Shown here: positions 22,262-58,100 of the stretch, in pieces
How positions within the stretch are numbered: the stretch's first letter is position 1
Layout: the number at the start of each line of letters is the position of its first letter
From: Panopea generosa
Lineage: Eukaryota > Mollusca > Bivalvia > Adapedonta > Hiatellidae
Reading direction: 5' to 3'
Assembly (NCBI GenBank): GCA_029582155.1
Contig: CM055899.1
Coordinates: 69,647,719-69,711,718, forward strand
Length of the DNA stretch: 64,000 bases
Notes under the pieces: model-generated
The model's database searches: none
Seen by the model: only the letters and a program-made list of their open reading frames with translations
Told to the model about the DNA's origin: nothing
Position numbers and translations under genes: made by a program

Positions 22262-25083
22262 CTATATGATGTTTGGAATCATATCTATAATATATTTACA
22301 TGGCTTGGCAATGGGGGGCAGATTAAAATCACAACCCAGGCCACATATAACTATATGTGGACTGCATTGTGGCATCCAACTCGCCCCCATATGCACTCCC
22401 CCCACTAATAGAACAGTACACAGAACGCCTGCCATCTGCAATTGAATAGTCGAGTCATACAAATATTGCTATTTTGGTTGTCCACATGGAAAACTAGGGA
22501 AGTGGATAAGTATATTAGTGCTTTGCTACATCTCTTATATTTTGTCTAACATTTCACAGTCAAGGATGTAGCACTCCAGTGCTCTAAATACTGAGGCTCA
22601 GACTGCCTTGCTGCGATTCAATATGTTTGTTATGTTAAATTCCAAACTATGTCCAGCAAGTGCAGTCTTAAGTTTGGTTCTGTGAACCCTGTCAATTGGA
22701 CAGTCCAGCAGAAAACGGTTTGTTGTGTATTTTGCCTTACACCGGGTGCAATCTCTTCCTTGTTTAATAATAAATTGCCCTTTGTTTCCTGGTAGGAGAT
22801 TGACACCCAATCTCAGACGAGTAATGCACTTATCTATTCTCTTATTGTTAGAATAGTTTGTTGGCCATCTGAAATTTACCGAGGTTCTAGGAAATGTTTG
22901 TTTTAAAGTTTTGCTACTAATATAATCTGTCCATTTTTTTTAACATGTTTTCTTGATAAAGGATATACCTTAGTAGTTGCTAAGGGAATTGAATTTGAAA
23001 TATTTGTATATTGTAAGGCATCTTTTGCAACCCTGTCAGCTTCTTCATTTCCTGATTTGTCTACATGTGTTGGACACCATTCCATTGTGACCTGTAATCC
23101 TTATTCAAGGCACTGGTTATATTAAGAAAAGATTTTTGCCAAAAGGTCAGGCCTTGATCTGCTATTATTGTTTTGAAATGATGTTAGAGCTAAAAGTGGG
23201 TTCGAGAGAATAGCAGTTTTTGTTGGTTTATTTTCTAATATACAGCACATAGATTTTTGAATTGCGGTCAGTTCAGCTGTGTATATTGACAAATTGTTGC
23301 TGAGTCTCTCAGAATACTGTATCTGTGGGGACGGAATGACATATACAGCTGCAACTTTCCCGTCATCGGGATTTTTACTACCATTAGTGTAAATTTGTGT
23401 ATGTTCAGCATAATGCCGGTCAATATGGTTTGCCGTAATGGATCTTATAAGTGCTGGCAAATCATTTTTATTGAACTCGGCGGCTAGTGATAACCTAATA
23501 TCAGGATTTTTGAGCGTCCAGGGTGATTTTAATTTAGGTCTAAAATCTGCAAGACTGACATTACTGAGACTGTACTTCTCCACCAAGTCCTGGGTATGAG
23601 CCCCAAATGGAAGCGAAACATGGGCTTTCTTTGAATATTTTGACTTGATGTAGTACCCGGTCCCAATGAGCTTGTTCACAGGGTTCCCATCCTTCCTTGT
23701 TTGAGCCCTGACCCAGTACTTAACTGATTGATCTTCCCGTCTCAATTTAAGTGGAATAATTCCTGCCTCCGCTTCTAATATATGGCCTGGTGTGGATTGG
23801 AGCGCTCTGAGTGCTAACTTGAGAGCCTTATTTTGGATGGTATCTAATTTTTGAAGTATTGAAGGGGATGCACAAGAATAGATTTGAGCTCCATAGTCTA
23901 TTTGTGGACGTATGAGAGACTTATATAGAAGTAAGAGGCTATTTTTATCAGAGCAAATATCTTTACCTCTTAGCACTCATCAAATTTATGTCTCTCTCAC
24001 ACCTGATCATGATGTCCTTTATGTGACAGTGAAAATTTAATTTCCTATCTAAAAGCATGCCTAAAATATATACATTTTTAATATGATTCAAACTGTGCTG
24101 ATTTGAATTTCCAAAAATAATACCCACTGTTTTATTCTTGCTAATTTTAAACCCCCATTCTTTGGTCCATCCCCATATTAGGTCAAGTCCTGTTTGAGCT
24201 CTGGTTTGTAATAGGTGTAAGTTGACCCCTTTTAGCCATGTACCAGAATCATCAGCAAATCGACGAGTAACCATGCCTATCCCCTTTAGTGTAGCAGGCA
24301 GATCATTATTAAAATAGAAAAGAGTAGAGGAGATAATATAGCCCCTTGAGGGGTTCCTCTTTCTACTTATTTAGTATCTGAGAGGGACCCCCCTACTTTA
24401 ACATGAATTTTGCGACCCTCTATGAAGTTCTACAGATATAGGTAGCAGTTTCCTGTTATACCATGTTCTTTAAGTTTAAATGATATGCCTGAGTGCTAGG
24501 TTTATCAAAAGCTGCTTGTAGGTCTAAAAAGATGGCTAGGATCGAGTTTCCCCTATTTTTTGCTGAATTTACGTCATGTTGCAGACGTACGAGCTGGTCT
24601 AAAGTGCTCTTCCCCTTTCTAAAGCCATAATTCCAGTGCTGAACTGGGCATATGCTTGAACATTTGATAGGACAAATTAGCAAGTCCGGAGGCGGAGTTC
24701 TTCCTGCTTTCTATTATTGATTTAAGTTCAAAAATTGAGAAACTATTGTTCAGTGGTGACCTGATGGTTTCTGGGATATAATGTATCTAGGTGATTTTTG
24801 TACAATGATTCAAATTATTTTTGGTAATTTAAAGTGTCAATGTCTACATTTGAATCACTGCTAGCTTTAGAGTAGTGCTTAACTAAAAAGTTAGCTTTTT
24901 CTACTTATGTGACCGCTAAAGCTGTATTTTTTTTTAGTAATGGTATTAGCGATGCAAATTTCCTTTAATGCTGCGGATTTTAGTACAAAATTCTTTAGAG
25001 TTCGAGTCTTTATGAATACAATTCTCGCAGAATTCTTCCCAGTTAAGCTTTTTAGCGTTAAAGATGACATTTTTAGCTTGATG
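22262..25083 (-). pseudogene. Decayed non-LTR retrotransposon with reverse transcriptase and RNase H
   Basis: Minus-strand pieces in order from 25083 down: a region between endonuclease and RT (NVIFNAKKLNWEEFCE); RT fragments GFRKGKSTLDQLVRLQHDVN and AIFLDLQAAFD (24456-24683); the catalytic-box segment RRFADDSGTWLKG (23963-24274); thumb region LLLYKSLIRPQIDYGAQIYS followed by RNase H (IYTNGSK, YTAELTAIQKS) at 23122-23976; the RNase H end GNEEADRVAK (22903-23085); and a zinc-knuckle-like CTRCKAKYTTNRFLLDCPID (22598-22810). The RNase H aspartates in IYTDGS and ILSDS contexts are Asn here, and frames are broken, so it is dead. RNase H places it near I/Jockey-type LINEs. The endonuclease is missing: the element stops where the 48-bp array begins. 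Confidence 0.88.
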
Positions 25084-40100: not shown

Positions 40101-43100
40101 AGATACAACAGTTAACTGTCTTGCACCAACCGGTTCCCGTGCATATCACCTTGCTGCTGCATGTTAATCCGAATTTCAAAGCACATAATTATTTTGGTAT
40201 CACGCATCACAAACACGTGATGAACAAATAGCATTAGATCAATCACTAGTTTGATAACAATAAATTAGCATCATTATGTCACTCATGGATAACAATAGCT
40301 TGTTTCACTTCAAACGCAGCTTACATCGAATGGTCTTGATGGAACAAATACCAATCGCAGCTACATTGAGTACCTGAGTAATTTCATTCAGAATACCTGG
40401 CATTGTTTCTATAAAACAACACATTCAATACTGTTTAATTTGGTTCACAATTCTAGGTGCTTTTAGTTATCAATACACCTAATGTCGACCAACTAAATTG
40501 CATGAGATAGAATTTCACCTTGTCTGTTTATATTTCAATATTATCGTGTTTCAATTTTCTGCTTGGTTTTTCTCATGCCGAAGCCGATTAGCTCAGTTGG
40601 TGACGCGTCTTAGTTCGAATCCCCCGCCCGGCAACAGTTTCCATGATGATTGATATACAACATTGTGTCTCATTATCATGTCTCTTACCACTGATTCAAG
40701 TAGGAAAGTAATCAATTACTTGCGGAGATGGGGTGTGTTCGAGTACTGGTTAATCCCAGGAAAAAGTAGTTAGGTTAACTGATCGTCTATTAGCTCTCGA
40801 TCGCATAAAAATGACGCTATATATTCAATCAACCAATCAATTGTTTTCTCATAACATTTTCCAACATTTACCTTTCTATATGCATTACTCATTCACATCC
40901 TGTACACTCATACTTCTTTTCTTCTCTTATGATCACATGTTCCATGGAGGATACTCGCTCACACAGAATTATTACCCTAGTATTACATTATGTGTATTGA
41001 TATATCTGTTTACAGAGCGAGAGTGGGTCTTTTAAGTCACTTTTAACTCAATCAAAAAGGGTTTTAACCGATGGAAATGTTCGATTTGATTATTTTGCTA
41101 TTCGTTTTACTTATTCTGTCCGGTGACGTCCACGACGTCCAAAGCTTTGCCCCAAAGATACACCAACTGTAAGCTGATTAATGCTCATTTTATGTATTGG
41201 CTTTCACGGAAACCTGGTTGAATAACAATACATCTGCATCGGATGTTGCCTTTTCAAACTACCAAACAACTTTCTGTAAGGATCGCCCAATTGACAGATT
41301 TGGCGGTGTCCTATGTTAAGGATACGATCACTGCTCGCCGAAGGCAAGACTTAGAGGTAAACGACATTGGATGTATATGGTTAGAATTGAAAGTGAAACA
41401 TAAACCTATGCTGTTCTGCGTTTTCTACCGTCCACCGAATTTCAATGCTGCTGTCTGTCCTTTCGTGTATTCAGGATCCCATAGCTCTAGCTGTCGATAC
41501 TCAGATTAAAGACATAGTGGTTACTTGTGATTTTAATCTCGACTGTCGCAAACCTGCATCTCGATTGAAATTTGATATTTGTATGCAATTCTTCATTTTC
41601 CAACTAATTTCAGATCCAACCAATTTCACCGAATCTTCCCAGTCCATTATCGGCCTATTCTTTGTATCCTGTCCCAATCTGGTATCCATTTGTGTTGTAG
41701 GTGAACCCTTCCTTGAGCAGAATATTTGCTATCATTGTCCAGTATTCTGTTGTATCAGAAACCCTAAACCCCGACACACACACTTCAAGCGAAAAGTCTG
41801 GAAATTTTTTGAACCAATTTTGATCTGTTGCGTACCAATGTATCCGAGTTTGATTAGGAAACTTATTTTGACGCTGATGTTGATGTGTATTCTTCTAGTC
41901 TCTCAATCAGCTTACATGTATTTACCATACCTTTTGCTAGGTTCTAGATGACGGTAAAGAGGTTCGAGCTGTCTTTTGTGATATATCTAAAGCTTTCTAC
42001 TGCGTGTGGCATAATGGACTTCTATTCAAACTTGAACGTAGTGGTATCTCTATCTCTCTTCTTCTTTGGTTCAAGGATTATTTAGCTCGCAGTACACAAA
42101 GTGTATTCATTTCATGTCCTCATCTGACACGGTTCCACTATCGGCTGGTGTTCTTCAAGGCTCAACGTTAGGTCCATTATTATTTCTTGTTTACATCAAT
42201 GATATTGTTTCTGAAATATGCTGTGCGACACAACCTTTTATGTGATTGTCGATAATCCTCAACATGCTGCTCTCCGTTTAAATTCTGACCTTCAAAAGAT
42301 CAATGACTGGGCTTCAACCTGGCTGATAACTTTCAATCCTGCTAGAACTGAATCTTTAATTATTTCTCGCAAACACGTCAAACCCAAGCACACGCCCATA
42401 TTCATGAACTCTATTAAAATACAGAAAGCCGACACTCACAAACACTTTGGAATCTCTCTCAATAGCGATGGCACATGGCACAAACACAATAAAGAATCAC
42501 CAAAAAAGCTTGGAATCGAGTCTCTCTCAAATCCACTCTGGATCATCGGTCACTTGAAACTATCTACACATCTTTCATAAGGCCTACACTCGAATACTCT
42601 GACGTGGTTTGGGATAATATAACCAAAGCTGAAGAAGAAGACCTCGAAAATATCCAAATGGAAGCAGCTAGAATCATTACGGGAGCAGCAAGCCTGGAAT
42701 CACTTAATAACGTATACAAATAATCAGCTCTTGAGCCCTTGAAGACCCGCAGACGTCAACACAAATTGGTCCACTTCTATAAAATGCTCATCAGGCCCTC
42801 TACCCCTTTCTACTTATCCAATTTGATCCCCGAAACAGTAGGTAATGTTGCAACCTACGGCCTACGCAATTCTGACCACATTAGAAACGTTCCTCCAACA
42901 CCCAACACTTCTCTGCATCTTTCCTCCCCTACACTATATCAGAATGACACACACTACCTCCTGCCACCCGGTCTGCTGCTTCCGTCTTGTCTTTCAAGCA
43001 CGCTCTGAATTCTAATAAGAAGCCTGTCTGTTCCAAAATCTTATTACGATGATAGAAGAGATTCGGCAATGTAGCACGCGCGGTTACGGAGGCACTGCAG

Positions 43101-46100
43101 TTTCTTGAAAGAGCATCTCTTTTCCAAAAACATTGTAGAAAGCCCAAACAGTGTCTGTAGAGAAATTGAGGATACGTATCACTGTTTCTTCACATGCCCT
43201 TTATATCAACGCCAAAGAACTCTACTCCATGACGTCCTTCGTCCTATTATCCGTCCAGACCTAAATATACTGCTGTTCGACAACGACACTCTTTCTGATG
43301 ATTCCAATCGACAAATAGTTCACCATGTCCAAACATACATTTCGAAGACCAAGCGTTTCATTCATTAAGTTGAACCATCCTTTATTGCCATAAAAGTCAC
43401 CACAACACATCAATAGGCTTCCCCTGTGATCACATCTTTCCTTTCCTTCTTCTATCTATCTACTTTATCTATCCAGTTCCACTTTATTTCTACTCACATA
43501 TATATATATATTTATAGTAAATAATTTAAGTTATATACGGCAAGTATTGTTCAATGCTAGTATACACAATTGTCAGTAGTTGAAGCGTCGTATACGCCGC
43601 ATCCTATATACATACCTAATCAGCTGCAACTGTATTCTCAACGATCAAATTACTTGTACATAGTTATTATTTTCATCTCAAGCGCTGCTTATAATCCGTT
43701 TGTCTAGTAATTAATTTGTTCTTTGCATTTGTATCACCATTGTATAGTCCTTGCAAGATATTCAGAAGAGAGACTTTGTATAAGCTAGAAATAGCTTTCT
43801 TCTTAATTATATTGTTATGAATCGCTGTATATTTTAATATATGTTTATGTAATATGTTGATAACAAATAAATATTGTTTAAACAAGATCACCTTCCGCTG
43901 CAGCAGACGGTGCATTATGTGTTGTTCCGCTGCAGCAGCCGGTTATTCCGCTGCAGCAGACGGTACATTACATGTTGTTCCGCTGAAGCAGATGGTGCAT
44001 TATTTGTTGTTCCGCTGAAGCAGACGGTGCATTACATGTTGTTCCGCTGCAGCAGATGGTGCATTACATGTTGTTCCGCTGCAGCAGACGGTGCATTATT
44101 TGTTGTTCCGCTGAAGCAGACGGTACATTACTTGTTGTTCCGCTGAAGCAGACGGTGCATTACATGTTGTTCCGCTGCAGCAGACGGTGCATTACATGTT
44201 GTTCCGCTGCAGCAGACGGTGCATTACATGTTGTTCCGCTGAAGCAGACGGTTCATTACGTGTTGTTCCGCTGAAGCAGACGGTGCATTACGTGTTGTTC
44301 CGCTGCAGCAGACGGTTCATTACGTGTTGTTCCGCTGAAGCAGACGGTTCATTACTTGTTGTTCCGCTGAAGCAGACGGTGCATTACTTGTTGTTCCGCT
44401 GAAGCAGACGGTGCATTACATGTTGTTCCGCTGCAGCAGACGGTGCATTACGTGTTGTTCCGCTGCAGCAGACGGTGCATTACGTGTTGTTCCGCTGAAG
44501 CAGACGGTGCATTACGTGTTGTTCCGCTGAAGCAGACGGTGCATTACGTGTTGTTCCGCTGCAGCAGACGGTGCATTACGTGTTGTTCCGCTGAAGCAGA
44601 CGGTTCATTACGTGTTGTTCCGCTGAAGCAGACGGTACATTACGTGTTGTTCCGCTGAAGCAGACGGTGCATTACGTGTTGTTCCGCTGAAGCAGACTGT
44701 GCATTACGTGTTGTTCCGCTGAAGCAGACGGTTCATTACTTGTTGTTCCGCTGAAGCAGACGGTGCATTACATGTTGTTCCGCTGAAGCAGACGGTGCAT
44801 TACATGTTGTTCCGCTGAAGCAGACGGTTCATTACTTGTTGTTCCGCTGAAGCAGACGGTTCATTACTTGTTGTTCCGCTGCAGCAGACGGTACATTACA
44901 TGTTGTTCCGCTGCAGCAGACGGTGCATTACATGTTGTTCCGCTGAAGCAGACGGTTCATTACTTGATGTTCCGCTGCAGCAGACGGTGCATTACATGTT
45001 GTTCCGCTGAAGCAGACGGTGCATTACGTGTTGTTCCGCTGAAGCAGACGGTGCATTACTTGTTGTTCCGCTGAAGCAGACGGTTCATTACTTGTTGTTC
45101 CGCTGCAGCAGACGGTACATTACATGTTGTTCCGCTGCAGCAGACGGTGCATTACGTGTTGTTCCGCTGAAGCAGACGGTTCATTACTTGTTGTTCCGCT
45201 GCAGCAGACGGTACATTACGTGTTGTTCCGCTGAAGCAGACGGTGCATTACGTGTTGTTCCGCTGAAGCAGACGGTTCATTACTTGTTGTTCCGCTGCAG
45301 CAGACGGTACATTACGTGTTGTTCCGCTGAAGCAGACGGTGCATTACGTGTTGTTCCGCTGCAGCAGACGGTGCATTACGTGTTGTTCCGCTGAAGCAGA
45401 CGGTTCATTACTTGTTGTTCCGCTGCAGCAGACGGTACATTACGTGTTGTTCCGCTGAAGCAGACGGTTCATTACTTGTTGTTCCGCTGAAGCAGACGGT
45501 TCATTACATGTTGTTCCGCTGCAGCAGACGGTACATTACGTGTTGTTCCGCTGCAGCAGACGGTGCATTACGTGTTGTTCCGCTGAAGCAGACGGTTCAT
45601 TACTTGTTGTTCCGCTGAAGCAGACGGTACATTACTTGTTGTTCCGCTGAAGCAGACGGTGCATTACATGTTGTTCCGCTGAAGCAGACGGTTCATTACT
45701 TGTTGTTCCGCTGCAGCAGACGGTACATTACATGTTGTTCCGCTGCAGCAGACGGTACATTACATGTTGTTCCGCTGCAGCAGACGGTGCATTACATGTT
45801 GTTCCGCTGATGCAGACGGTTCATTACTTGTTGTTCCGCTGCAGCAGACGGTACATTACGTGTTGTTCCGCTGAAGCAGACGGTGCATTACGTGTTGTTC
45901 GGCTGCAGCAGACGGTGCATTACGTGTTGTTCCGCTGAAGCAGACGGTTCATTACTTGTTGTTCCGCTGCAGCAGACGGTACATTACTTGTTGTTCCGCT
46001 GAAGCAGACGGTGCATTACTTGTTGTTCCGCTGAAGCAGACGGTTCATTACTTGTTGTTCCGCTGAAGCAGACGGTACATTACTTGTTGTTTCGCTGCGC

Positions 46101-49100: not shown

Positions 49101-52100
49101 CGTCGATACAAGATACAAGAAACTTTATTTTGTGTCGGATGTACAAAATACAAAACACTAGCTGTAAAGCTATTTACCGATTAAATAAATACGTGTTAAA
49201 TCATATAAAGGCGATCTGACTGACACAATTACATCCTTTTATCAGTTTAGCTGTCATTGTTTTGTGTTTTTTTTTCTTCAATATTACAGTTCTCATATAT
49301 TTAACTCATACATTAACAACGCATTATATTCTGGTTGTATGTGTTACAGGCAATGATGGTCAAACATTGGACGGGAGAATGTATCAAGTGACGGGACACG
49401 AAAAAGGGTATGTATACCAAGACAAGTTATAACACGTGTAGTTGGTAATTGTTGGCAATATGCAACCATTTTTTTAAAAGAAATGAAATAAATACCGTAA
49501 AATTCATTTTCATGCTACTGCTAAAGAATATTATATTTAAGCTATATTTGACACAATATGTTTCTATTAGATCGGTATTATTACAGGTTATTTAACACAG
49601 ACATTGAACATGGAGAAGAATTTGATATTCATTTATTAGCTGGAAATGACCTCATTAAAATGACTCTACAACGTGGACATTCAGTCGTACATCCTGACTG
49701 CATGATTGGTGTTCGATCTCGATCCGGAAATGACGTCATAACAATTCCCGCCAATGCACGCTCTAGAGACCACTGCTATTGGACTGGCGATGTTCCTTCT
49801 CATTACGGGAAAGTCGTTTTCAACCATTGTGGCAAGACAATCGTAAGTTGTATCATTTTTTTTTTTTACTTACTTATATTACATCGACTGTGAAAGATGT
49901 TCTCACAACGTAGGTAAATCAAAGTAGAACCAGTACTAAGTATATTGCTGGGTAAAACCAGTACTAAGTATATTGCTTGGTAGAACCAGTACAAAGTATA
50001 TTGCTGGGTAGAACCACTACTAAGTATATTGCTGGGTAGAACCAGTACTAAGTATTTTGCTGGGTAGAACCACTACTAAGTATATTGTTGGGTAAAACCA
50101 GTACTAAGTATATTGCTGGGTAGACCCAGTACAAAGTATATTGCTCGGTAGAATTAGTACAAAGTTTATTGCTGGGTAGAACCAGTACTAAGTGTATTGC
50201 TGGGTAGAACCAGTACTTAGAGTACAAAGTATATTGCTGAGTAAAACCAGTACTAAGTATATTGCTGGGTAGAACCAGTACTAAATGTATTGCTGGGTAG
50301 AACCAGTACTAAGTGTATTGCTGGGTAGAACCAGTACTAAGTGTATACTAAGTGTATTGCTGGGTAGAACCAGTACTAAGTGTATTGCTTGGTAGAACCA
50401 GTACTAAGTGTATACTAAGTGTATTGCTGGGTAGAACAAGTACTAAGTGTATACTAAGTGTATTGCTGGGTAGAACCAGTACTAAGTGTATACTAAGTGT
50501 ATTGCTGGGTAGAACCAGTACTTAGAGTACAAAGTATATTGCTGAGTAAAACCAGTATTAAGTATATTGTTGGGTAGAACCAGTACTAAGTATATATAAA
50601 GATTAAAGTGTTTTGTCCAAGAACACCACACATAGGTCTGTTGTTTTTTTTGGGGGGGTGGGGGGGGAGGCGAACACATGACCGTTCGATCCTGGTTCCA
50701 TTGCTCTACCACTAGACTACGCGCTCGGCTTTATTAATTTATCATTCACTGTTACAAGTAGTCATACATACCGTAGTATGTGACGAAATTGGAACTTATC
50801 TGACATGCTGAAATAAAGTTCTATACATTTAAGGGAATGGTTTGATACACATATATGATAGAACAGTTTACACAACTGTATCATATATCATCTATCGTCT
50901 CATGTAAGTCATAATGATTGAAAATAAAAATAGGCAAAACGCATTAGATGACAAACTTCTAACGTATATGAATGCTTACAGAATGGTAATGTGGTAACAA
51001 GAAGCACTAGCTAACAAATTGATCGGTGTGACTAATTGCACGGTGTACTTCTAACGTATATAATTGTTTACAGAATGGTATTGTGGTAGCAAGAAGCACT
51101 AGGTGACAAATTGCTCGGTGTACTTCTAACGTATATGATTGTTTACAGAATGGTATTGAAGTAGCAAGAAGCACTAGGTGACAAATTGCACGGTGTACTT
51201 CTAACGTTTATAATTGTTTACAGAATGGTAGTGTCGTAACAAGAAGCACTAGGTGACAAATTGCTCGGTGTACTTCTGATGTACACAATTGTTTACAAAA
51301 TGGTATTGTGATAACAAGAAGCACTAGGTGACAAATTGCTCGGTGTACTTCTGATGTACACAATTGTTTACAAAATGGTATTGTGGTAACAAGAAGCACT
51401 AGATGACAAATTGCTCGGTGTACTTCTAACGTATATAATTGTTTACAGAATGGTATTGTGGTAACAAGAAGCAGTAGGTGACAAATTGCTCGGTGTACTT
51501 CTAACGTATATAATTGTTTACAGAATGGTATTGTGGTAACAGGAAGCACTAGGTGACAAATTGCTCGGTGTACTTCGTACGTATATAATTGTTTACAGAA
51601 TGGTATTATGGTAACAAGAAGCACTACATGACAAATTGCTCGGTGTACTTCTAGCGTATATGATTGTTTACAGAATGGTATTGTGGTAACAGGAAGCACT
51701 AGATGACAAATTGCTCGGTGAACTGCTTACGTATATGATTGTTTGCAAAATGGTATTGTGAACAAGAAGCACTAGGTGACAAATTGCTCGGTGTACTTCT
51801 GATGTACACAATTGTTTACAAAATGGTATTGTGGTAACAAGAAGCACTAGATGACAAATTGCTCAGCGTACTTCTCACGTATATGATTGTTTACAGAAGG
51901 GTATTGTGGTAACAGGAAGCACTAGATGACAAATTGCTCGGTGTTCTTCTAACGTATATAATTGTTTACAGAATGGTATTGTGGTAACAAGAAGCACTAC
52001 ATGACAAATTGCTCGGTGTACTTCTAGCGTATATGATTGTTTACAGAATGGAATTGTGGTAACAGGAAACAAAGTGACAAATTGCTCGGTGTACTTCTAA

Positions 52101-55100
52101 CGTATATGATAGATTACAGAATGGTATTGTGGTAACATGAATGACTAGGTGACAAATTGCTCGGTATACTTTTTACGTTTATAATTGTTTACAGAATGGT
52201 AGTGTCGTAACAAGAAGCACTAGATGACAAATTGCTCGGCGTACTTCTAATGTATATAATTGTTTACAGAATTGTATTGTAGTAACAGAAACTGCTAGAT
52301 GACAAATTACTCGGTGTATTTCTAACGTATATGATTGTTTACTGAATGGTATTGTGGTAACAATAAGCACTAGATGACAAATTGATCTGTGTACTTTTCA
52401 CGTATATAATTATTTACAGAATTGTATTGTGGTAACAAGAATCACTAGATGACAGATTGATCGGTGTACTTCTCGCGTATATGATTGTTTACAGAATAGT
52501 AATGTGGTAACAGGAAGCACTAAATGACAAATTGCTCGATGTACTTTTCACGTATATGTTTGTTTACAGAATGCTATTGTGGTAACAAGAAGCACTAAGT
52601 AACAAATTGCTCGGTGTACTTCTAACGCATGTAATTGTTAACATAACTGTATTGTTGTAACAGGAGGCACTAAGTGATAAATTGCTCGGTGTCCTTCTAA
52701 CATTTATCATTGTTAACAGAATGGTATTATGGTAACAAGAAGCACTAAGTTATAAATCACTCGGTGTAGTTCTAACGTATATGATTATTTACTGAGTGGT
52801 GTTGTGGTATCAAGAAGCACTAGGTGACTTATTGCTCGGTGTACTTCTCACGTATATAATTGTTTACAGAATGGTATTGAGGAAACAAGAAGCACTAAAT
52901 GTCAAATTGCTCGGTGTACTTCTCGCGTATGTGATTGTTTACAGAATGGTATTTGTAGTAACAAGAAGCAGTAGATGACAAATTGCTCGGTGTACTTCTA
53001 ACGTATATGATTGTTTACAGAATGGTATTGTGGTAACAGGAAGCACTAGGTGACAAATTGCTCGGTGTAATTCTAACGTATACAATTATTTACAGAATGG
53101 TATTGTGGTAACAAGAAGTACTAGGTGACAAATTGCTCGGTGTACTTCTAACGTATATGATTGGTTACAGAATGGTTTTGTGGTAACAAGAAGCACTAGA
53201 TGACAAATTGCTCGGTGTAATTCTAACGTATATAATTGTTTACAGAATGGTATTGTGGTAACAAAAAAGACTAGATGACAAATTGCTTAGTGAACTTCTA
53301 ACGTATATGATTGTTTACCGAATGGTATTGTAGTAAAACGAAGCAGTATATGACAAATTGCTCGGTGTACTTCTAACGTATATAATTGTTTACAGAATTG
53401 TATTGTGGTAACAAGAAGCAATAGGTGACAAATTGCTCGGTGTACTTCTAACGTATATAATTGTTTACAGAATTTTATTGTGGTAACAAGAAGCAACAGG
53501 TTACAAATTGCTCGGTGTACTTCTAACGTATATAATTGTTTACAGAATTGTATTGTGGTAACAAGAAGCAGTAGGTGACAAATTGCTCGGTGTACTTCTA
53601 ACGTATATAATTGTTTACAGAATTGTATTGTGGTAACAAGAAGCAACAGGTTACAAATTGCTCGGTGTACTTCTAACGTATATAATTGTTTACAGAATTG
53701 TATTGTGGTAACAAGAAGCAGTAGGTGACAAATTGCTCGGTGTTCTTTTAATGTATATAATTGTTTACAGAATGGTATTGTGGTAACAAGAAGCAGTAGG
53801 TGACAAATTGCTCGGCGTACTTCTAACGTATATAATTGTTTACAGAATTGTATTGTGGTAACAAGAAGCAATAGGTGACAAATTGCTCGGTGTACTTCTA
53901 ACGTATATAATTGTTTACAGAATTGTATTGTGGTAACAAGAAGCAACAGGTTACAAAATGCTCGGTGTACTTCTAACGTATATAATTGTTTACAGAATTG
54001 TATTGTGGTAACAAGAAGCAATAGGTGACAAATTGCTCGGTGTTCTTTTAACGTATATAATTGTTTACAGAATGGTATTGTGGTAACAAGACGCAGTAGG
54101 TGACAAATTGCTCGGTGTACTTCTAACGTATATAATTGTTTACAGAATTGTATTGTGGTAACAAGAAGCAACAGGTTACAAATTGCTCGGTGTACTTCTA
54201 ACGTATATAATTGTTTACAGAATTGTATTGTGGTAACAAGAAGCTGTAGGTGACAAATTGCTCGGTGTTCTTTTAACGTATATAATTGTTTACAGAATGG
54301 TATTGTGGTAACAAGAAGCAGTAGGTGACAAATTGCTCGGCGTACTTCTAACGTATATACTTGTTTACAGAATGGTATTGTGGTAACAAGAAGAAGATGA
54401 CAAATTGCATGGTGTACATCTAACGTATATAAATGTTTACAGAATTGTATTGTGGTAACAAGAAGAAGTAGATGACAAATTGCTCGGTGTACTTCTAACG
54501 TATATAATTGTTTACAGAATTGTATTGTGGTAACAAGAAGCAGTAGGTGACAAATTGCTCGGTGTACTTCTAACGTATATACTTGTTTACAGAAAAGTAT
54601 TGTGGAAACAAGAAGCACTAGAACTCAAATTGCTTGGTGAACTTCTAACGTATATGATTGTTTACAGAATGGTATTGTGGTAACAAGAAGCAGTAGGTGA
54701 CAAATTGCTCGGTGTACTTCTAACGTATATAATTGTTTACAGAATTGTATTGTGGTAACAGGAAGCAATAGGTGACAAATTGCTCGGTGTACTTATAACG
54801 TATATAATTGTTTACAGAATTGTATTGTGGTAACAAGAAGCAATAGGTGACAAATTGCTCGGTGTACTTCTAACGTATATAATTGTTTACAGAATTGTAT
54901 TGTGGTAACAAGAAGCAACAGGTTACAAATTGCTCGGTGTACTTCTAACGTATATAATTGTTTACAGAATTGTATTGTGGTAACAAGAAGCAGTAGGTGA
55001 CAAATTGCTCGGTGTTCTTTTAATGTATATAATTGTTTACAGAATGGTATTGTGGTAACAAGAAGCAGTAGGTGACAAATTGCTCGGTGTACTTCTAACG

Positions 55101-58100
55101 TATATAATTGTTTACAGAATTGTATTGTGGTAACAAGAAGCAACAGGTTACAAATTGCTCGGTGTACTTCTAACGTATATAATTGTTTACAGAATTGTAT
55201 TGTGGTAACAAGAAGCAGTAGGTGACAAATTGCTCGGTGTTCTTTTAACGTATATAATTGTTTACAGAATGGTATTATGGTAACAAGACGCAGTAGGTGA
55301 CAAATTGCTCGGTGTACTTCTAACGTATATAATTGTTTACAGAATTGTATTGTGGTAACAAGAAGCAACAGGTTACAAATTGCTCGGTGTACTTCTAACG
55401 TATATAATTGTTTACAGAATTGTATTGTGGTAACAAGAAGCTGTAGGTGACAAATTGCTCGGTGTTCTTTTAACGTATATAATTGTTTACAGAATGGTAT
55501 TGTGGTAACAAGAAGCAGTAGGTGACAAATTGCTCGGCGTACTTCTAACGTATATACTTGTTTACAGAATGGTATTGTGGTAACAAGAAGAAGATGACAA
55601 ATTGCATGGTGTACATCTAACGTATATAAATGTTTACAGAATTGTATTGTGGTAACAAGAAGAAGTAGATGACAAATTGCTCGGTGTACTTCTAACGTAT
55701 ATAATTGTTTACAGAATTGTATTGTGGTAACAAGAAGCAGTAGGTGACAAATTGCTCGGTGTACTTCTAACGTATATACTTGTTTACAGAAAAGTATTGT
55801 GGAAACAAGAAGCACTAGAACTCAAATTGCTTGGTGAACTTCTAACGTATATGATTGTTTACCGAATGGTATTGTAGTAACAATAGCAGTAGATAACAAA
55901 TTGCTCGGTGCACTTTTCACGTATATAATTGTTTACAGAATGGTATTGTGGTAACAAGAAACACTAAATGACAAATTGCTCGGTGTACTTCTAACGTATA
56001 TGATTGTTTACAGAATGGTATTGTGGTAACAAGAAACACTAGGTGACAAATTGCTCGGTGTACTTCTAACACAAATGATTTTTTACAGAATGGTATTGTG
56101 GTAACAGAGGATCACGAGTATAGTGTCGTCATGGATAAAGACAATTTACGAAAAAAGAGGGCTATTGGCCAATCAATGCCTGTAAAAGTTACTAAACGCA
56201 GTGTAGATGGTGATGTTGCTAATTTGGTTGCAGACTACCTCGAAGAATTAGAAGGTATATCTGAATATATAGACAAAGATTAACAACGTTTAATTTGCTG
56301 GCAAGTTGTAAATAGAAAATCCAATAATAACAATTCGGATTCCTAGAGCACCAAATGGTGCATCATCAATCCTTTAAGCTGACTATTAGAATCACAAAAT
56401 TTTAAGATTTCAATATAGTTTTGATAACTGTTTCCATACTATTGGTAAATATTATTGTTTTGTTTTTTTCATATGGGAAATTTTAATTATACATCCCAGA
56501 CAATCAAGATGTTCCTCATAACTCGAGTAACATCATATTTGGCATCCATGTGACAATTTTAGATTTTAATATTCAAAATATTTACAGATAATTAAAATGT
56601 ATCCTTTGAAATCAGTTGCCTGTATATGTATACACACATCAGAATATCTCTATATCGCCAAACAAGACGTGTGTAATGGAAATGCTACTAATCATTGGTA
56701 TATAAGGCTGATTATGTTGATATAATGATAAATAACAATTATCACAATTATCCATGTATCACAAATACAGCGGACACGTTGCAGGGATCTGATGGCAACC
56801 TCCGACAGAGAAGAGATACCGGAGACAATCCTACAGACACAGCGGATAGCGTGCAGGGAGCTGATGGTAACCGCCGAAACAGAAGAACTGCCGAGAACTA
56901 TCCTGCAGTCACCCTCGAGGCCGCCGTGATTGTGGACCAAGATTATAATGAGAAGAAACTCAACAATCTCAATACAATGCAGGAGAAATTCGAAGCACTA
57001 ATGCTGAAATACCACATGGTGAGTAAACTGTTTTATATATCTTATTGAATGATCGTTTGAAATCATAGAGCGAAATCAAAAGAAACAAATGACACACGCG
57101 GTTTTATTGAGAATTGTTATGAGGGGTAATGCAACATGCAACACCCATCGCGTATCCTAACACATTCTCATTCGATATTATGTTCTAAACTTTAAAGTGT
57201 CTCATGATTTTATTCTATTGAGTCAAATCAGTAATCATTTCAAGACATTCCATACTGAACGGAAAAAAAACGCTAACTGGCATGTACCAACGCAAATTTA
57301 AGCTACCCCGCCCCACCCCCACCCCCAACACCCACCATTTTATGTATTTTCTCAAAAATTATTAAAGCAATTTCAGAAAACCCGCCGCCCGACATTGTAT
57401 TTACTTTCTCAAAAGTTCCTTGAAATTTGAACTTTAATAATAAAGAACACTTCGGTGACAATGAACAACAGGGATAAGCAAAATCAACACATAATTGTCT
57501 GTTAATGCCGCATTTAACTGTTAACAACGCTGCTATTTTGACAATATATATAAGGGAAATAAAAAAAGTGGCTGGTTAGCTGCTCCGTTCAGTATAAAAT
57601 ATATACAGGTTTACAATATACATAGGTATAAAATACGGTGTTAACATATCACACAATACGTCAACACCGGGCACTGTGCCTGTTGCCATATACAAGTACA
57701 GTACATAGATATAACACGAACATTGTATTGCAGTAGTACTAAAGGTTTTATTGCGAGACGCTGAAATTACCCAAAGGTGAGTGGACATTGCACACGTTAT
57801 ACCTGTGTGACAGAAAATAATATCACAACCTATTCTTAATGTGTCACCATATCTCTAATCAAATTGCTGACTTCATAACCTGGTATTGCATACACACACT
57901 AAAAACTATTCTGCAACATTTACCTGAACACTTATTAAAGATGTTGGAATTATATAAAAAAAAAGGTGAACAGTGTTAACTATTTATCAATATATAAAAT
58001 AAACATAACGCCATCTGTATCTACCATATTGTTATGCTGGAGATATATCAAGTAGTGTAAACAACTTAGTCAATGCAACACATATACGGAATACACTTGT

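Follow-up and report, generated by a model that had tools for sequence, protein, structure and literature searches.

The DNA considered here is a stretch of 64,000 nucleotides (nt) from contig CM055899.1 (positions 69,647,719 to 69,711,718 of the forward strand), referred to below as the window. Its plus strand carries exons of a probable M12B-type metalloprotease gene and, at the junction of intron 4 and exon 5 of this gene, a minisatellite with a unit of 75 base pairs (bp) in which the intron–exon boundary is itself repeated dozens of times. The array is a large representative of the repeats described in amphioxus as mirages, and it is probably a mostly inert passenger of a repeat-prone locus.

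The host gene

Three exons, all on the plus strand, frame the array. Exon 4 (49587..49842), assigned to the propeptide and delimited by its open frame, acceptor and donor (ATC|GTAAGT), lies upstream. Exon 5 (56089..56254) is 166 nt long, ends in the donor AAG|GTATAT and encodes a furin-like KKRA site downstream of the 18 nt that are repeated in the array. Exon 6 (56771..57018), with the donor ATG|GTGAGT, agrees in frame with exon 5. The three exons form one continuous open frame in both copies of the gene present in this genome, which fits a donor at 49842/49843 and a phase 0 junction between exons 4 and 5. In the gene frame the repeated 18 nt read NGIVVT, and they are identical in both genuine exons.

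From its sequence, the gene is likely to encode an M12B-type metalloprotease. The peptide of exons 4 and 5 matches the family PF01562 (Pep_M12B_propep) weakly, at an E value (0.032) that falls short of the curated cut-off. About 16 kilobases (kb) downstream of exon 5, beyond the window, an open frame contains HEIGH, which has the form of the HExxH zinc motif, with a donor after it. No protein relatives of exons 4 and 5 were found at E 0.001 in a large protein database (11 candidates), and their lone match in PDB has E=0.98.

Structure of the array

Tandem Repeats Finder (TRF) reports the 75-bp minisatellite at 51028-56106, with 67.9 copies and 89% matches. Wrap-around alignment of 50930-56130 to the consensus, combined with reading of the sequence, places the whole array at 50,945-56,106 with about 69 units, the left edge being set by eye. 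An earlier note on this DNA had described about 68 units of 75 bp, and its coordinates were right.

The array opens with a first unit deleted at its 5' end (acceptor 50981/50982), which the duplicate locus discussed below also has; next comes an incomplete unit lacking an acceptor, at about 51003-51027 (the two together 50945..51027). Units u3-u69 (51028..56042) are 67 decoys, each about 75 bp long, in which the branch-like CTAAC, TTTACAG and 18 bases of exon 5 are usually succeeded by an in-frame stop. The final unit (56043..56106) is the genuine exon-5 acceptor (ACACAAATGATTTTTTACAG|AATGG, 56088/56089), as alignment and sequence reading agree and as the earlier note had stated.

Column counts cover the 67 units u3-u69, to the exclusion of the deleted first unit and the partial unit, whereas the 68 upstream copies comprise u1 and u3-u69. 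CTAAC is exact in 44 of the 67 units and TTTACAG is present in 55; the exon 18-mer is exact in 21 and has at most one mismatch in 54. The three elements, which the earlier note ascribed to each unit, are therefore typical of the units but not universal among them. Across the upstream copies, the AG is kept in 59 of 68, a YTNAY branch motif in 63 and the two together in 54. Spliced to exon 4 in phase 0, every AG-intact copy (59/59) would lead to an in-frame stop within 35 codons, which bears out the early truncation that had been foreseen for misuse of the copies.

With up to three mismatches allowed, all 67 occurrences of the exon-5 18-mer in the window lie within the array, so its recurrence is repetition and not chance. 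There are 52 distinct sequences among 68 units. A higher-order duplication (54025..55892) is visible, in which a nine-unit block stands twice: units 43-51 (54025-54696) recur nearly identically as units 59-67 (55222-55892), 1197 bp further on. The 11 bases that follow the 18-mer (AGAAGCACTAG) may or may not derive from the exon, for by eye they are as similar to the sequence with which the exon continues as to that on the left of the first unit. Two open frames of the minus strand, 445 and 342 codons long (window 53290-54624 and 54796-55821), cross the array and encode a 25-residue repeat; they are this long because the 75-bp unit has no stop in that frame, and a reading of the array as a coding repeat was set aside.

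The segmental duplicate and a probable local origin

The array unit was searched for in the animal's own genome (1.47 gigabases, 39 contigs) by a word search that skips very common words, so that its counts are lower bounds. It was found at two places only, the window and C6:69379510-69380676. The second location is the same intron–exon junction in a segmental duplicate about 320 kb upstream, and there, too, the genuine boundary is the terminal copy. The duplicate carries about 16 units as against about 69 in the window, a comparison between paralogues rather than between haplotypes. Copy number thus differs between the two gene copies, in line with the earlier note.

The duplicates are closely similar over long distances. 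Between them, a 6.36-kb block that starts within the array and runs as far as 61287 shows 97.1% identity, and another block of 12.8 kb shows 95.1%. As a whole, the segmental duplication pairs window 31516-64000 with C6:69362000-69391999, and several arrays within it are unequal in length. The five exon-nearest units, the genuine one included, map one-to-one between the duplicates with 0, 0, 0, 1 and 0 differences, and the roughly 50 extra units of the window array sit further inside. The exon-5 and exon-4 peptides match only these two loci in the genome, and the own-genome search with exon 4 or exon 5 found no more distant paralogues free of the array.

A unit found at only two loci, at the same junction of duplicated genes, supports a local origin with later change in copy number. 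The proposal of the earlier note that the array arose locally, by duplication across the intron–exon border, is accordingly supported, and the dispersal of the unit through the genome, which that note had named as the finding that would speak against it, was not seen beyond the duplicate junction in this lower-bound search. The initial local tandem duplication would have taken in the last part of intron 4 together with 18 or more bases from the start of exon 5. Slippage or unequal exchange, to which the repeat pattern points, may then have amplified it to about 69 units, and the coding exon, kept single by selection, would anchor the right end of the array.

Divergence among the decoys and between the duplicates was also examined for signs of selection. 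The decoy AG columns diverge by 6.0% and 7.5%, near the column mean of 6.75% and slightly above the median of 4.5%; they give no sign of selection to keep the decoy AGs and no clear sign of selection to remove them. Exons 5 and 6 differ less between the duplicates than the noncoding sequence past exon 5 does (2 substitutions in 396 positions against 84 in 4491; Fisher P=0.045). This points weakly to constraint on both genes despite a fourfold difference in decoy number. Exons 4-6 taken together differ at 8 of 669 nt, with 2 synonymous and 6 nonsynonymous codons, a pattern that does not by itself show strong constraint.

Acceptor and donor signals in the array

Acceptor and donor matrices were built from the clathrin gene of the same genome, in which 22 of 25 adjacent exon pairs were solved. 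With 2.12 bits for the genuine exon-5 acceptor and 2.2 bits for the median decoy that retains its AG, the two rank equally, at the 27th percentile of real sites. Set against 1207 AGs in clathrin introns that go unused, the median decoy ranks in the top 5%. The copies nearest exon 5 score 1.44 and 0.94. The view of the earlier note that the units are acceptor-like is borne out by these values and by the many retained AGs. It had also held that a lack of junction reads together with acceptor scores far below the 56089 site would point to an inert repeat, and the copies do not lie far below that site.

The genuine acceptor is set apart in other respects. Its ACAG follows six T in a row (T6), a run that in no decoy is longer than three, and the T that extends the tract is present at both genuine sites but in none of 67 decoys here and none of 14 in the duplicate. 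Four substitutions that are private or nearly private to the genuine unit all lie between the branch point and the AG (hypergeometric P=0.005, in a post hoc test). T-runs of six or more are found in only 1 of 22 real acceptors.

Donors are scarce within the array. None of its 521 GTs reaches the 10th percentile of the 22 real clathrin donors and 5 reach the weakest of them; GTAAGT and GTGAGT are absent from the set. Only 1% score zero or more, compared with 6% of 1525 unused intronic GTs of the clathrin gene. The exon-5 donor scores 5.62 bits. Its distance is 166 nt to the genuine acceptor and 241, 316 and 465 nt to the acceptors of u69, u68 and u66, respectively; 18 solved clathrin exons measure 112-279 nt, save one of 564. 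Exon definition is an established principle of splice-site recognition. In a donor-poor array, only u69 and u68, the AG-intact copies nearest exon 5, would give exons of roughly normal length, and under exon definition the serious rivals of the genuine site would be these nearest one or two copies.

Other repeats at the locus

The 75-bp array lies among many others. Fourteen tandem arrays, chosen by hand from the TRF rows and with units of 4 to 147 bp, make up 37% of the window, and at the clathrin locus of the same genome three short repeats were found in 25 of 35 kb scanned. A 28-bp array within intron 4 (49924..50595, plus strand), which contains no splice junction, has 22 matched units as against 50 in the duplicate. 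A 32-bp array, also free of a junction, has 83 matched units in the window and 9 in the duplicate. Counted likewise, the 75-bp array has 63 and 14, while a 36-bp array (13 and 10) and a 63-bp array (5 and 5) are barely altered. Some junction-free arrays have thus shifted in copy number as much as the array that carries one.

Further observations concern the surroundings and another contig. An apparent remnant of a retroelement without long terminal repeats (non-LTR) lies at window 23125-24370 on the minus strand, with an RNase H match of E=0.017, below cut-off. Open frames at window 41222-43365 on the plus strand resemble, by eye, a second retroelement remnant; 41397-41948, the one frame scanned within this region, has no Pfam match. 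At C7:36000279-36066517 there is a cluster of Hsp70-like genes, in at least 4 of which a single unbroken stretch covers the residues from about 50 to past 560.

A probable inert passenger and its alternatives

We read the array as a large mirage-type minisatellite that is mostly an inert passenger of a repeat-prone locus, with modest leakage at most, and give this a probability of about 0.7. Exon 4 would most likely still be spliced to the last unit, since that unit, 166 nt away from the exon-5 donor, would yield an exon of ordinary length and has the sole T6 tract between branch point and AG. The upstream copies would be mostly ignored in splicing, because the array offers few donor-like sites by which they could be recognized as exons. 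A small leak into u69 and u68 may occur and would lead to early stops and probably to decay of the messenger RNA (mRNA).

Several observations weigh against this reading. With the own-genome matrix, 38 of the 59 AG-intact decoys score at least as high as the genuine acceptor, and the smoothing of the matrix matters, the number being 54, 3, 38, 0 and 44 of 59 over five settings. The acceptors of the neighbouring exons fall on both sides, that of exon 6 (-0.47) under the decoy median and that of exon 4 (4.23) over all decoys. T-runs of three or fewer occur in 16 of 22 real acceptors of this genome, so that short runs are normal and the short tract of the decoys does not disqualify them. The donor evidence has a weakness too, as 139 of the 521 GTs in the array outscore the exon-4 donor (-2.46). 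Its score is low because all 22 training donors have G at position -1 where exon 4 has C, and the donor matrix can therefore miss real donors. On positions +3 to +6 alone, the exon-4 donor beats every array GT, and 17 array GTs reach the real-donor median. Models in which the first acceptor transcribed wins would favour the upstream copies. Since the matrix scores fail to separate them from the genuine site, the upstream copies are credible acceptors by sequence and not plainly dead.

These points lend some substance to the suggestion of the earlier note that the array is an acceptor sink, whose upstream copies catch a real share of splicing and direct it to stops and mRNA decay, with copy number setting the output of protease. 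The AG persists in 59 of 68 copies, in 54 together with a branch motif; the decoy scores overlap that of the genuine site and stand high among unused AGs; and every AG-intact copy leads to a stop. In the human gene ABCA7, longer alleles of a variable number tandem repeat (VNTR) go with lower expression and more skipping of exon 19, and retention of one unit introduces a stop; yet the authors saw no influence of VNTR length on decay and did not ascribe the lower expression to the mis-spliced forms (PMC5954066). Amphioxus mirages are reported to splice normally (PMC3087553, PMC3902484). The sink is further weakened by the scarcity of donor-like sites, subject to the caveat of the exon-4 donor, by AG columns conserved no better than the mean and by junction-free arrays that vary in copy number equally, and we consider it unlikely. 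Less probable still is an acceptor-built copy-number rheostat, in which near-equal sites would share one donor, misuse would lead to a stop, the true site would have been strengthened by T6, and the paralogues with 69 and 16 units would represent two settings.

A further possibility, compatible with the passenger reading, is that the array was costly and that selection lengthened the tract of the genuine site to T6 while the copies stayed at T3. It would explain why T6 is confined to the two genuine sites, its extending base being absent from all 67 and all 14 decoys, why private substitutions concentrate between branch point and AG, and why the genuine tract exceeds most real acceptors. Against this, what T6 adds to the matrix score is cancelled out by other changes, the clustering was tested post hoc, and T6 could be ancestral and have been lost in the copy that founded the array; its presence in both duplicates also means that a single event is observed. 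We regard such strengthening as conceivable but doubtful. An inflation of the unit number by the assembler, for instance through the 1197-bp internal duplication, would account for two nearly identical nine-unit blocks and has an apparent precedent in an amphioxus mirage that is reported to seem aberrantly assembled in a genome draft (PMC3087553). With 52 distinct sequences among 68 units and a different array of about 16 units in the duplicate, it is very improbable. The least credible alternative is a dispersed satellite or a transposon-borne repeat that inserted at the exon and from which the exon start was recruited. The locus is indeed rich in arrays; the unit, however, occurs only here and at the duplicate junction by the lower-bound search, and its 18 nt read as NGIVVT in frame in both genuine exons. 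On the result of the own-genome search we reject this origin.

Comparison with known systems

The array fits what defines a mirage: tandem units of minisatellite size, a unit that spans a boundary, and the authentic boundary as the terminal copy. It belongs to this known type and is distinguished by its large size; the earlier note's remark that no named class exists does not hold, and no acceptor mirage of this size was found in the open-licence literature of PubMed Central.

If the copies are ignored, the locus amounts to a natural experiment, of an extreme kind, in how the spliceosome chooses the correct acceptor from dozens of similar ones. Scores from sequence hardly tell these sites apart, and position, exon definition or the T-tract must therefore do so. 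The duplicate genes with about 69 and 16 units provide a built-in comparison, and if the host is not a lancelet, mirages would not be confined to amphioxus. On the donor side, a minisatellite in IFI6 reportedly supplies multiple donor sites in an interferon-induced transcript; like the window array it multiplies a splice site within a gene, and it differs in the side concerned.

In amphioxus, mirages are minisatellite-like tandem repeats of intron–exon boundaries, found in Adh3 and in the globin genes BflGb6 and BflGb9 (PMC3087553, PMC3902484), with PGBD5 added and TnC cited later (PMC3902484). The BflGb6 mirage comprises the 3' end of an intron and the 5' part of an exon, in 6 and 3 units in two haplotypes, and reverse transcription polymerase chain reaction (RT-PCR) suggested regular splicing (PMC3087553). 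That of Adh3 shows length instability between haplotypes as well as somatic instability (PMC3087553, PMC3902484). The window array resembles them as a tandem repeat of a boundary, on the same side as in BflGb6, with splice signals in many but not all units. It differs in having about 69 units as opposed to 6 and 3 in BflGb6, and a 75-bp unit as opposed to 150-160 bp in BflGb6 and 10-72 bp in Adh3. Normal splicing of the amphioxus mirages is reported from RT-PCR; that of the window array is judged from site scores.

The human VNTR lies in intron 18 of ABCA7 and includes the exon 18 donor (PMC5954066). Both arrays adjoin an exon and hold its splice site together with a spare site in the unit; both have a large range of copy number, and in both the use of a single unit would bring in a stop. 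The ABCA7 repeat, unlike the one described here, acts on the donor side, has a 25-bp unit and comes with measured effects on expression and on exon 19 skipping.

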